Source of the DNA: Reyranella sp. CPCC 100927
GTDB taxonomy: Bacteria; Pseudomonadota; Alphaproteobacteria; Reyranellales; Reyranellaceae
Assembly (NCBI RefSeq): GCF_007859315.1
Contig: NZ_VOHA01000034.1
Span: 1 to 58,616 of the forward strand
Reading direction: 5' to 3'
Length of the DNA: 58,616 nucleotides
Of the stretch, positions 26,830 to 29,501 are shown in pieces (within the stretch, counting starts at the first letter, position 1; every line of letters begins with the position of its first letter). Below the pieces are notes generated by a model. That model searched no databases, was not told where the DNA came from, and saw only the letters and a program-made list of their open reading frames with translations. The position numbers and the translations under genes were made by a program.

Positions 26830-27696
26830 TCAACTGGGAAGAACGCCCAGGTTGATTTTGCGCAGGTTGTCAGGGTCGGCGATCGCCTCGATATCGGCGA
26901 TGCGCCCATCCCGGATCACCAGACGCAGGACGACGCGCAGTCGGCCGCCGGGAGCCACGAACAGCCCCACGGCGCCGTCCACCAGCACCGGCTGGGCGCC
27001 GCGCCGTCCGAGCAGGGCCGTCGCGACGGCGGCGGCGCCGCGTGCCTCCTGCGATGCGCCGGCCCGCAGGGCGGCGGCGTCGGCGCGCAGCACGACGTCG
27101 GGATCCAGCAATGCGACGAGGGCCTCGACATCGCCGCGGCGGGTGGCGGCCAGGAAGGCATCGACGACCTTGCGCTGGCTCGCGACGTCCGGATCGGCAA
27201 CCGTAGCCCGGCCCTGTACCCGGCGCCGCCCGCGGCTGGCCAGCTGGCGCGCCGCCGTCGGCGAGCGGCCGACGATCGGCGCGATCTCGTCGAACGAGAG
27301 ATCGAACATGTCGTGCAGCACGAATGCCACGCGCTCGGCCGGCGCCAGGGTCTGCAGCACGACCAGCAGCGCCAGCCCCACCGAGTCCGCCAGCATCGCC
27401 TCGTGCTCGGGGCTCGGCCTCATGTCCGGGCCGGCTACCGGCGCCGGGGTCTCCAGCGGCTCCTCGCGTCGCGATCGGCGCGTGCGCAGCATGTCCAGGC
27501 ACACCCGCGCCACGGTGGTGGTCAGCCACCCGCCGAGATTGTCGATACCCGTCCCGCCGGCGCGACTGAGCCGCAGCCAGCCCTCCTGGACGGCGTCCTC
27601 GGCCTCGTTCACCGAACCCAGCATTCGGTACGCGACCGCCCGCAGGTGCGGGCGGTTGGCTTCGAACTGGTCGGCCAGCCACTTTTTTTCGTCCAT
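26830..27696 (-). CDS. RNA polymerase ECF sigma factor, ECF41 group, with C-terminal SnoaL-like domain
   Basis: 288 residues. Regions 2 and 4 are seen in AYRMLGSVNEAEDAVQEGWLRL and LTTTVARVCLDMLRTRRSRREE, then LSFDEIAPIVGRSPTAARQLASRGRRRV as the helix-turn-helix. The C-terminal 110 residues form a SnoaL/NTF2-like domain ending near ADPDNLRKIN, the equivalent of the NPDKL motif. ECF41 sigma factors lack an anti-sigma factor; the C-terminal domain regulates them directly. They are typically linked to a carboxymuconolactone decarboxylase, oxidoreductase or epimerase gene; here it is the divergent gene at 27805. Assignment to ECF41 rests on these motifs and on the adjoining promoters. Confidence 0.9.
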   Translation of the reverse strand: MDEKKWLADQFEANRPHLRAVAYRMLGSVNEAEDAVQEGWLRLSRAGGTGIDNLGGWLTTTVARVCLDMLRTRRSRREEPLETPAPVAGPDMRPSPEHEAMLADSVGLALLVVLQTLAPAERVAFVLHDMFDLSFDEIAPIVGRSPTAARQLASRGRRRVQGRATVADPDVASQRKVVDAFLAATRRGDVEALVALLDPDVVLRADAAALRAGASQEARGAAAVATALLGRRGAQPVLVDGAVGLFVAPGGRLRVVLRLVIRDGRIADIEAIADPDNLRKINLGVLPS

Positions 27697-27697
27697 C

Positions 27698-27724
27698 GGT
27701 CACACCGTGTCGCTGCGCTCCGTC
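27698..27724 (+). promoter_or_regulatory. ECF41-type promoter for the carboxymuconolactone decarboxylase-family gene
   Basis: GGTCACA (27698-27704) is followed after exactly 16 bp by CGTC (27721-27724). This matches the published ECF41 consensus TGTCACA-N16-CGTC at all positions but the first. The predicted start near 27731 leaves a leader of about 74 nt before the ATG at 27805. Confidence 0.7.
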
Positions 27725-27732
27725 AGGGCCAT

Positions 27733-27759
27733 GACGAACGAAGCCCGGGCGATGTGACC
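27733..27759 (-). promoter_or_regulatory. ECF41-type promoter for the sigma factor gene (mirror image)
   Basis: On the minus strand GGTCACA (27759-27753) is followed after exactly 16 bp by CGTC (27736-27733). It is the mirror of the plus-strand promoter. The two -10 elements are separated by only 8 bp, so polymerases on the two promoters would exclude each other. Transcription leftward from about 27726 would reach ATG 27696 after about 30 nt, giving sigma-factor autoregulation. Confidence 0.7.
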
Positions 27760-27804
27760 ATCGCCCGGGGATGGTGCCGTCATAGTCGTCAAAGGAGACC
27801 GATC

Positions 27805-28263
27805 ATGGAAGCACGGATGAAGAACCCGGCGTTGATCCTCGAGGGCGCGCTGCAGGCTTTGCTCGACCTGGGCAAGGCCATTGAAAAGGCCGGCGTCCCG
27901 CCCGCGACCCTGGCGCTGATTCACCTGCGCGCCAGCCAGATCAACGGCTGCAGCGTCTGCGTCGACGCCGGCTTTCGCGACCTGAAGAAGGTCGGCGAGC
28001 GCGACACCCGGATTTTCACCGTCGCCGCCTGGCGGGACGCACCTTATTTCAGCGACGCTGAACGCGCCGCGTTGGCGCTGACCGAGGCGGTCACCCGCCT
28101 GAGCGAGCGGATGGAGGGAATCCCGGACGACGTCTGGGCCGAAATCGTGCGGCACTACGACGAGCCGTCACGCGCCGCGCTGGTTCTCGCCATCGCCCAG
28201 TCGAATATCTGGAACCGGCTCAACGTTACGGTGCGGCAGGTGGCCGGCACGCCGTGGAACTAG
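27805..28263 (+). CDS. Carboxymuconolactone decarboxylase/AhpD-family protein
   Basis: 152 residues from ATG 27805, preceded by AAAGGAGA. LRASQINGCSVCVDAGFRDL carries the CxxC (GCSVC) of the AhpD-like core fold, and ALTEAVTRLSE follows. Proteins of this family include peroxidase partners (AhpD) and decarboxylases; those controlled by ECF41 sigma factors have no proven substrate in most cases. It is divergent from the ECF41 gene and carries its promoter signature, so it is probably the main regulon member here. Confidence 0.88.
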   Translation: MEARMKNPALILEGALQALLDLGKAIEKAGVPPATLALIHLRASQINGCSVCVDAGFRDLKKVGERDTRIFTVAAWRDAPYFSDAERAALALTEAVTRLSERMEGIPDDVWAEIVRHYDEPSRAALVLAIAQSNIWNRLNVTVRQVAGTPWN

Positions 28264-28267
28264 GCGG

Positions 28268-28333
28268 CCGTCATCCCGAGTGTAGTGAGGGATCTCCTCG
28301 CGAAAGATCCCTCGCTGGCGCTCGGGATGACAG
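28268..28333. repeat. Palindromic repeat (family A)
   Basis: The arms CCGTCATCCCGAGTGTAGTG and the mirror CGCTGGCGCTCGGGATGACAG begin right after the stop of the carboxymuconolactone decarboxylase gene. It starts the 425-bp gene-poor stretch 28264-28688, which holds this repeat, a small RNA gene and a second repeat. Confidence 0.75.
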
Positions 28334-28343
28334 TCTGCTCATC

Positions 28344-28382
28344 GGAAAACAAGAAGGGCCGCTCCTGGCGGAGCGACCCTTC
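28344..28382 (-). terminator. Intrinsic terminator of the small minus-strand RNA
   Basis: Read on the minus strand, GAAGGGUCGCUCC pairs with GGAGCGGCCCUUC around a GCCA loop: 13 pairs, of which one is G-U. The run UUGUUUU follows immediately. The G-U pair is a mismatch in the plus-strand version, and the U-tract exists only on the minus strand, so the direction is clear. Confidence 0.8.
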
Positions 28383-28424
28383 CATTGTCACGGCGTCGGT
28401 TGGCGCCGGGAACCGAGAATCTGG

Positions 28425-28499
28425 TCAGCCGACTCCCTGAACGGAAGCGACGACGATCCAGGTCCGGGCGCAAACAGGCCGATAGTGACAATGAGACAC
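28425..28499 (-). CDS. Small ORF (24 residues) with an extreme Shine-Dalgarno
   Basis: GTG at 28499, seven bases after GGAGG, opens 24 sense codons ending in TGA at 28427-28425. The peptide starts M-S-H-C-H-Y-R, has a second Cys at position 10 and a single Trp, and ends V-Q-G-V-G. Because of the unusually strong ribosome site it is probably translated efficiently, yet it is too short to classify. It could be a leader peptide, a regulatory small protein, or a means of loading ribosomes onto the RNA. Confidence 0.5.
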   Translation of the reverse strand: MSHCHYRPVCARTWIVVASVQGVG

Positions 28500-28500
28500 T

Positions 28501-28515
28501 GGATCACCTCCTTTC
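28501..28515 (-). promoter_or_regulatory. Extended Shine-Dalgarno, full complement of the 16S rRNA 3' end
   Basis: On the minus strand GAAAGGAGGTGATCC can pair over 15 nt with the anti-Shine-Dalgarno tail of 16S rRNA. It is flanked by CACTG and CAGTG, which can form a short stem presenting it in a loop, with the GTG start in the stem. Confidence 0.7.
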
Positions 28516-28535
28516 AGTGGTTGGCAGGAGCCCAT

Positions 28536-28564
28536 ACTATGGCGATCGAAACGCCGTTGTGCAA
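28536..28564 (-). promoter_or_regulatory. Candidate promoter of the small RNA
   Basis: TTGCAC (28564-28559) and CATAGT (28541-28536) on the minus strand, with a 17-bp spacer. Each matches the sigma-70 consensus at four of six positions. The predicted start is near 28530. Confidence 0.4.
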
Positions 28565-28584
28565 GAGGTGCAGACAAGAGCGCT

Positions 28585-28672
28585 CTGTCATTCCGAGCGC
28601 AGCGAGGAATCTTTCAATCGTGCAGATGCCGATCCACCGCTGAAAGATTCCTCGCTGCGCTCGGAATGACAG
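28585..28672. repeat. Palindromic repeat (family A)
   Basis: The arms CTGTCATTCCGAGCGCAGCG and CGCTGCGCTCGGAATGACAG, extended inward by GAGGAATCTTTCA and TGAAAGATTCCTC, are separated by about 22 bp. It sits between the small RNA and the 3' end of the hut operon. Confidence 0.8.
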
Positions 28673-28688
28673 GGATATCCCAGAGTCG

Positions 28689-29501
28689 CTAGCGGCGTTC
28701 GACGAAGGCCAGCACGGCTTCGAGGAAGCGCCGCAGCACCGGCTGCACGCCGGCGGCGACAGCCGGCAGATAGTCGAACGGCAACGCCTCCTGCATGTAG
28801 CTGCTCTGCGTCATTTCGAGCTGCACGGCGTGCACGTTCTGCGCCGGGCGACCGTGGTGGCGCGTGATGTAGCCGCCCGTGAAGCGGCCGTTGAGCACGG
28901 ATGTATAGTCCTTGGCTTCCCGGGCGATGGCCAGCAGCTGCTGCGCCAGTGCCGGATCGCAGCTGGTGCCCTTGCCGGTGCCGAGGTTGAGATCAGGCAG
29001 CTTGCCCTCGAAGAAGCGGGGCAGCACCGATCGGATCGAGTGCGCATCCCACAGCGCGGCGATGCCGTGCACGGACGTGAGGCGCGCCAGCTCCGCGTCC
29101 AGTTGCCGGTGGTAGGGATGCCAGATCGCCGTGCGCCGGATGTCGATCTCGGCCTCGCCGGGCACGTCGCCGGCAGCGTAGATCGGCTCGTCGTCGAACG
29201 TGTCGATCGGGCACAGCCCGGTAACGCTCTGCCCCGGATAGAGGCTGGTCCCGTCAGGCGGCCGGTTGAGGTCGATCACATAGCGCGAGTGCGTGGCGAT
29301 CAGCACCGACGCACCCAGCGCATCGGCGAAGTCGTACAGGCGCTCGAGGTGCCAGTCGGTGTCCGGCACCGGGCGCGCCGCATCGGTGAAGCGCGCCGCC
29401 AGCCGCGGCGGCACATAGGTGCCGACATGCGGCATCGAAATCAGCAGGGGCCGCGTGCCGGCGCGAAAGCGGAACGGCGGTTCCTCGGTCTGGAACGTCA
29501 T
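28689..29501 (-). CDS. hutG: N-formylglutamate amidohydrolase (HutG, deformylase type)
   Basis: 270 residues. RPLLISMPHVGTYVPPRLAARF (metal-binding His), LWDAHSIRS and GYITRHHGRPAQNVHAVQLEMTQSSYM are the hallmarks of the N-formylglutamate deformylase family. It hydrolyses N-formylglutamate to glutamate and formate, the last step of the five-step histidine route started by HutH, HutU, HutI and HutF, all encoded upstream. Its ATG is 2 bp after the stop of hutF. The five-step route, rather than the four-step one with formimidoylglutamase, is indicated by HutF and HutG together. Confidence 0.9.
   Translation of the reverse strand: MTFQTEEPPFRFRAGTRPLLISMPHVGTYVPPRLAARFTDAARPVPDTDWHLERLYDFADALGASVLIATHSRYVIDLNRPPDGTSLYPGQSVTGLCPIDTFDDEPIYAAGDVPGEAEIDIRRTAIWHPYHRQLDAELARLTSVHGIAALWDAHSIRSVLPRFFEGKLPDLNLGTGKGTSCDPALAQQLLAIAREAKDYTSVLNGRFTGGYITRHHGRPAQNVHAVQLEMTQSSYMQEALPFDYLPAVAAGVQPVLRRFLEAVLAFVERR

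Follow-up and report, generated by a model that had tools for sequence, protein, structure and literature searches.

The small mRNAs rreB and rreR are among the closest described relatives of the locus presented here. In Bradyrhizobium, rreB is reportedly a 165-nt mRNA with a 17-nt Shine-Dalgarno (SD) sequence, a GTG start codon and a 14-aa ORF, and is said to bind the 30S subunit and to be weakly translated; rreR, with 18 aa, is said to occur in Rhodobacter/Roseobacter. We take an rre-type RNA to be defined by at least 16 nt complementary to the 16S rRNA 3' end before a small ORF, a conserved frame, a peptide homologous to that of rreB or rreR, 30S association and weak translation. The other close relative is CC2171, a Caulobacter sRNA that Rfam lists as family RF01867. 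CC2171 RNA is named among the Mesorhizobium huakuii predictions in a published report (PMC5596092), and an article on Rfam 15 mentions that the family was improved by one pair (PMC11701678).

Here, we describe a locus in a 58,616-nt stretch of DNA from Reyranella sp. CPCC 100927, the whole of which is called the window. This locus is a real, conserved and free-standing small mRNA gene of a kind already known in alphaproteobacteria.

Results

An earlier inspection of the letters (the sequence-only reading) had listed on the minus strand of 28344-28565 a TTGCAC-N17-CATAGT promoter candidate, an extreme SD, a GTG followed by 24 codons and a TGA, a hairpin, and a 13-pair terminator working in this direction only, and all of these elements are present (Table 1). 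The putative promoter reads TTGCAC at 28564-28559 and CATAGT at 28541-28536 with a 17-nt spacer. The form TTGNNN-N17-CATANT is found 20-22 nt 5' of the SD in the window and in seven of eight near relatives (the exception being L004), and in its exact form in 14 of 215 loci overall; a generic sigma-70 scan detected no promoter at the locus. The terminator scan returned a single terminator, on the minus strand alone, with 0.4 expected in shuffled sequences. The full RNA folds at a z-score of -5.58, a value equalled in 0 of 200 shuffles. In the minimum-energy fold, the separate hairpin after the stop codon is absorbed into longer-range pairing. The proposal that CACTG/CAGTG flanks open and close the site was dropped, CACTG directly 5' of the SD occurring in just 1 of 215 loci, the window itself.

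Table 1. Features of the small mRNA gene in the window
Feature	Position	Strand	Basis
Candidate promoter TTGCAC-N17-CATAGT	28536..28564	-	sequence and near-relative conservation
Match to Rfam RF01867 (CC2171, Caulobacter sRNA), model 1-159 of 159	28355..28523	-	79 bits, gathering cut-off 75
Extended SD GAAAGGAGGTGATCCAG, 17 nt complementary to the 16S 3' tail	28499..28515	-	sequence, scan, 16S of G022
ORF, 24 codons, GTG to TGA (28427-28425), MSHCHYRPVCARTWIVVASVQGVG	28425..28499	-	scan, frame conservation
H2 5' arm CATTGTCAC, codons 3-5	28485..28493	-	minimum-energy fold, covariation
H1 3' arm CTGGATC, 16S-tail copy, pairs with GATCCAG (28505-28499)	28455..28461	-	covariation, consensus fold
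H2 3' arm GTGACAATG, just 5' of the terminator	28383..28391	-	minimum-energy fold, covariation
Intrinsic terminator, 13-pair stem 28382-28353 then TTGTTTTC	28345..28382	-	terminator scan

Upstream of the promoter, a perfect 32-nt inverted repeat (28585-28616 / 28641-28672) has its arms 24 nt apart. The GTCATCCCGAGCG theme of this repeat returns near 28270-28335 in a similar, palindrome-like stretch; REP-like repeats therefore stand on both sides of the gene.

The ribosome site had been described as a 15-nt perfect complement of the 16S 3' end. Its extreme character is confirmed, but the contiguous complementarity is 17 nt long, and the last G of GAAAGGAGGTGATCCAG is also the first base of the GTG (28499-28497). 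The sequence of the 16S tail, CTGGATCACCTCCTTTC, comes from the 16S gene of a single genome of the same family (G022); because the window's own assembly contains no other copy of GGATCACCTCCTTTC at ≤1 mismatch, pairing with the organism's own 16S rRNA is presumed. Two SD-like sites at ≤3 mismatches were found in the window where 0.07 were expected, the only exact one being this site. Since the plus strand is identical here to the final 17 nt of 16S, one might think of chance or of a relic of an antisense copy of the 16S 3' end. The match is, however, confined to the tail with flanks unlike 16S, and many genomes carry the unit complete with its terminator and ORF, a conservation that refutes this explanation and leaves it next to no probability.

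The sequence-only reading knew of no family matching this RNA. In fact, the RNA belongs to RF01867, the match exceeding the gathering cut-off (Table 1), and its anatomy also matches the one reported for the rreB/rreR "small mRNA with extended Shine-Dalgarno". When the model was run on 16 loci, the cut-off was reached by five (L074, L038, L092, L032 and L078) and not by 11; both Bradyrhizobium loci and both Rhodobacteraceae loci examined stayed below it. Searching relatives gave matches at E ≤ 0.001 in 17 of 61 genomes, the window's own included, with 8 over the cut-off. Similarly, 33 of 200 genomes drawn from the phylum had a match, which passed the cut-off in 8; each of the 33 was either the window itself or of the same class. 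Three genomes (G049, G279 and G313) each carry two RF01867-like matches at E ≤ 0.001. The pattern GAAAGGAGGTGATCCNDTG with at most one mismatch was present in 91 of 385 genomes of the class. Among the at least 119 stretches in a scan with record names, 110 of those listed are alphaproteobacterial judging by the name, three are unspecified Proteobacteria, and six are others (L025, L028, L037, L094, L105 and L118), namely five MAGs of other bacteria and one archaeal MAG. In L094 and L118, MAGs labelled Betaproteobacteria, this SD is followed by a related start (MRDQ/MRDH...), a hint of a form beyond the Alphaproteobacteria. Membership of a second Rfam family, BjrC68 (RF02353), was rejected: it resembles the 3' part including the terminator at 27.8 bits, but this is below its cut-off of 39, and the overlap is limited to 28424-28346, without the SD element.

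The conservation of the ORF was examined in 215 unique loci, from which 170 representatives were taken and grouped by the beginning of their peptides; as the groups were set by the first four residues, those codons are biased. The start codons among the 215 loci (108 GTG, 98 ATG and 9 TTG) are no independent evidence because the search pattern demanded DTG. In the window's group (52 representatives), a stop codon within the first 14 codons was found in 0, 25 and 11 sequences for frames 0, 1 and 2, respectively. The four other groups behave alike, with early stops in frame 0 in 0/21, 0/16, 0/31 and 1/37 sequences, compared to 6, 7, 15 and 21 in frame 1 and 3, 11, 28 and 21 in frame 2. Within the window's group, ORF lengths lie between 14 and 30 codons; their spread is 2.2 codons, whereas that of the other frames is about 20. 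The ORF has thus kept its frame and its length, and the other groups agree. A CTGG[AG] motif is present in 38 of the 52 sequences, in one frame in 36 of these 38 and at several in-frame distances.

For the peptide sequence, such conservation is not clear. Changes at codon positions 1, 2 and 3 number 21, 21 and 24 in same-genus pairs (four sequences, six pairs), 4, 8 and 4 in the g5 pairs, 1006, 1074 and 778 in the Sphingomonadales-like group and 707, 673 and 717 in Rhodobacteraceae. This test for peptide selection gave no third-position excess of changes, and it is not a clean one, as RNA pairing can also hold down third positions. Because the changes are spread about equally over the three positions, the peptide sequence looks weakly constrained. 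That the gene serves to make a peptide (MSHC... in the window's group) acting as a protein is consistent with the conserved frame, length and N-terminus and with the TWI-like motif held in one frame in 36 of 38 sequences. Nevertheless, we consider this quite unlikely, given the even codon-position changes in the same-genus pairs and the overlap of TWI with the H1 arm described below, where RNA pairing alone can conserve it. In addition, SP-1 of B. japonicum (14 aa) and SP-3 of Dinoroseobacter (18 aa) are entered as unstructured in a table of PMC7217052. SP-1 and SP-3 are probably the rreB/rreR peptides. The earlier proposal of a small protein valued for its sequence is weakened accordingly by the even spread of changes. 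Eight loci (L102, L144, L147, L063, L166, L165, L219 and L220) have longer ORFs, of 54-59 codons, behind this extended SD and start; these ORFs begin like signal peptides with cysteines later, a second use of the ribosome site.

The RNA is conserved where its neighbours are not. ORFs of ≥100 aa from 20 kb around the locus were compared by tblastn (E 1e-15) with 20 kb around the RNA in G001, G003 and G007. There were 0, 2 and 1 matches, respectively, weak (27-38%) and far from the RNA, and no syntenic neighbour within about 10 kb of it in these three genomes. SD, ORF and terminator are kept in relatives, which supports the transcription unit with an extreme ribosome site on a tiny ORF that the sequence-only reading had proposed. 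A leader or attenuator acting in cis on a neighbouring gene, which that reading had also envisaged as a leader-type sensor, would account for a short ORF followed by a terminator, and the RNA does lie about 170 nt after the end, at 28689, of the same-strand ORF 28689-29501. This is very improbable because the RNA comes with a promoter form and a terminator of its own, because the next ORF in its direction (27313-28263, plus strand) is convergent, and because the neighbours are not syntenic in the three relatives.

The lack of synteny would suit an RNA that works mainly in trans, as a sponge or sensor whose 17-nt complement holds free 30S subunits and whose ORF merely lets the RNA be cleared. 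The length of the complement, the even peptide changes and the 30S association reported for rreB point in the same direction. A pure sponge has no need, however, of an ORF with such tightly kept frame and length, and we regard this as unlikely, if less so than a functional peptide. The reading that we favour, a small mRNA whose folding responds to the ribosome, draws on the two helices presented in the following.

The first helix, H1, is formed by GATCCAG and the 16S-tail copy CTGGATC in codons 13-16; GATCCAG makes up the 3' half of the SD, and its final G already belongs to the GTG. The two arms covary: GATCCTG/CAGGATC is found in L011 and L159, GATCCCG/CGGGATC in L142 and GATCCGA/TCGGATC in L084. 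When own partners were compared with permuted ones, z-scores of -8.04 (160 of 170 representatives, too short or long ORFs being excluded) and -4.30 (the 52 of the window's group) were obtained, against 0.06 in a control region; these permutations ignore relatedness, which is addressed by the control regions alone. A test anchored on a unique GGATC, blind to the two variable bases themselves, found the base 5' of the anchor and the base after GATCC to be Watson-Crick partners in 22 of 37 cases (10.6 expected, p 1e-4), and stricter collapsing gave 18 of 31 (9.3 expected, p 6e-4). Among six control offsets, one was significant as well (p 0.026). No GGATC-like anchor is present in 48 of 150 GATCC representatives. 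RNAalifold, run on 20 sequences chosen from the 52, picked H1 and the terminator. It extended H1 over part of the SD core and the start codon, with pairs mostly invariant or changed on one side. Measured against dinucleotide-shuffled ORF regions, H1 is weak in single sequences of the window's group (12% at p ≤ 0.05, mean z -0.98) and significant in 3 of 3 Bradyrhizobium sequences. In three Bradyrhizobium loci (L066, L077 and L131), the ORF also has TCACCTC, a copy of the anti-SD core, adjoining CTGGGATC, and in the fold of L077 the GTCACCTC stretch is paired with the SD.

H2 is a second covarying helix, and it corresponds to the long-range helix by which RF01867 joins the start region to the stretch just 5' of the terminator, present here as CATTGTCAC/GTGACAATG in the minimum-energy fold and by covariation. 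With arms placed by a terminator-based anchor, own versus permuted partners gave a z-score of -5.02 in 51 of the 52 sequences of the window's group (L175, where no terminator was found, being left out) and -3.88 for the 30 distinct arms, against 0.13 in the control. The nested RNAalifold structure of 20 of the 52 sequences contained neither H2 nor H3.

The effect of the 3' part on the ribosome site was predicted by thermodynamic folding without pseudoknots, whereas H1 and H2 may form together in a pseudoknot. Of 51 sequences of the window's group, 49 have a terminator-like hairpin with a score of ≥35. Over the 51 sequences, the median unpaired probability of GATCCxy was 0.16 in RNA cut after the stop codon vs 0.47 in the full RNA, the site being more open in the full RNA in 36 of 51 and less open in 2. 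Replacing the native 3' segment by shuffled ones lowered the openness from 0.466 to 0.250, the native value being higher in 44 of 51 (p 1.5e-8). Here again, the native segment opened the site in other groups (Sphingomonadales-like 15/19, MSSD 18/22, others 24/29). In Bradyrhizobium it was higher in 6 of 8, with a level about unchanged at 0.23 in all three states, and Rhodobacteraceae went in the opposite direction, the site being more open with the native 3' segment in just 4 of 16.

Discussion

Taken together, the covariation and the predicted folds suggest that an in-frame copy of the 16S tail can close the ribosome site and that the 3' end of the RNA can reopen it. Our preferred interpretation, which we hold to be somewhat on the probable side, is a free-standing ribosome-responsive small mRNA of the CC2171/rre type with a two-state switch. 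Early in transcription, H1 would close the ribosome site by pairing the 3' half of the SD and the start codon with the in-frame CTGGATC. Once the 3' part is made, H2 and the inner pairing would draw the ORF-internal arm away and bare the 17-nt site, which could then bind the 30S subunit very tightly. It would be the act of translating the short ORF, and not the peptide sequence, that sets the folding of the RNA, its lifetime and the time for which the ribosome is held.

More speculatively, and with more doubt than confidence on our side, the whole CC2171/rre class may be one bistable device, in which ribosome and in-frame 16S-tail mimic compete for the ribosome binding site and the 3' end serves as a completion signal for opening. 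Cells might sense free 30S subunits in this way, and the peptide would be a by-product of ribosome-driven refolding. If the mimic and the release by the 3' end are real, RNA structure joins rRNA pairing as an explanation of the extended SD, and an mRNA readout of free 30S subunits in bacteria becomes directly testable. A limited literature search, which did not include the main rreB/rreR paper, found no description of an internal 16S-tail mimic, and one may be in print; as far as this search reached, a covarying 16S-tail mimic with 3'-end release may not have been described previously.

Compared with rreB and rreR as reported, the RNA of the window is likewise a free-standing small mRNA with a 17-nt SD, a GTG start and a terminator, and its 17 nt of 16S complement precede a small ORF of conserved frame. 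It differs by its 24 codons and by another peptide, for which no homology to the peptides of rreB (14 aa) or rreR (18 aa) was found. Because this 24-aa peptide differs beyond MS, the small mRNA is rre-like and is neither rreB nor rreR. Features in common with CC2171 (RF01867) are the extended SD, the terminator and the long-range helix that precedes it. By contrast, RF01867 is filed as a non-coding sRNA with the ORF outside its model, and its consensus structure as printed is without the pairing of the SD to CTGGATC. For annotation, this means that selection for frame and length acts on an ORF inside a "non-coding" family. It is noteworthy that our locus scan independently recovered the 14-codon ORFs of Bradyrhizobium (MSFTKRCHLAGIAR and variants) and the 18-codon ORFs of Rhodobacteraceae. 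The CC2171 library sRNA and the rreB/rreR type of small mRNA appear to be faces of one widespread alphaproteobacterial class.
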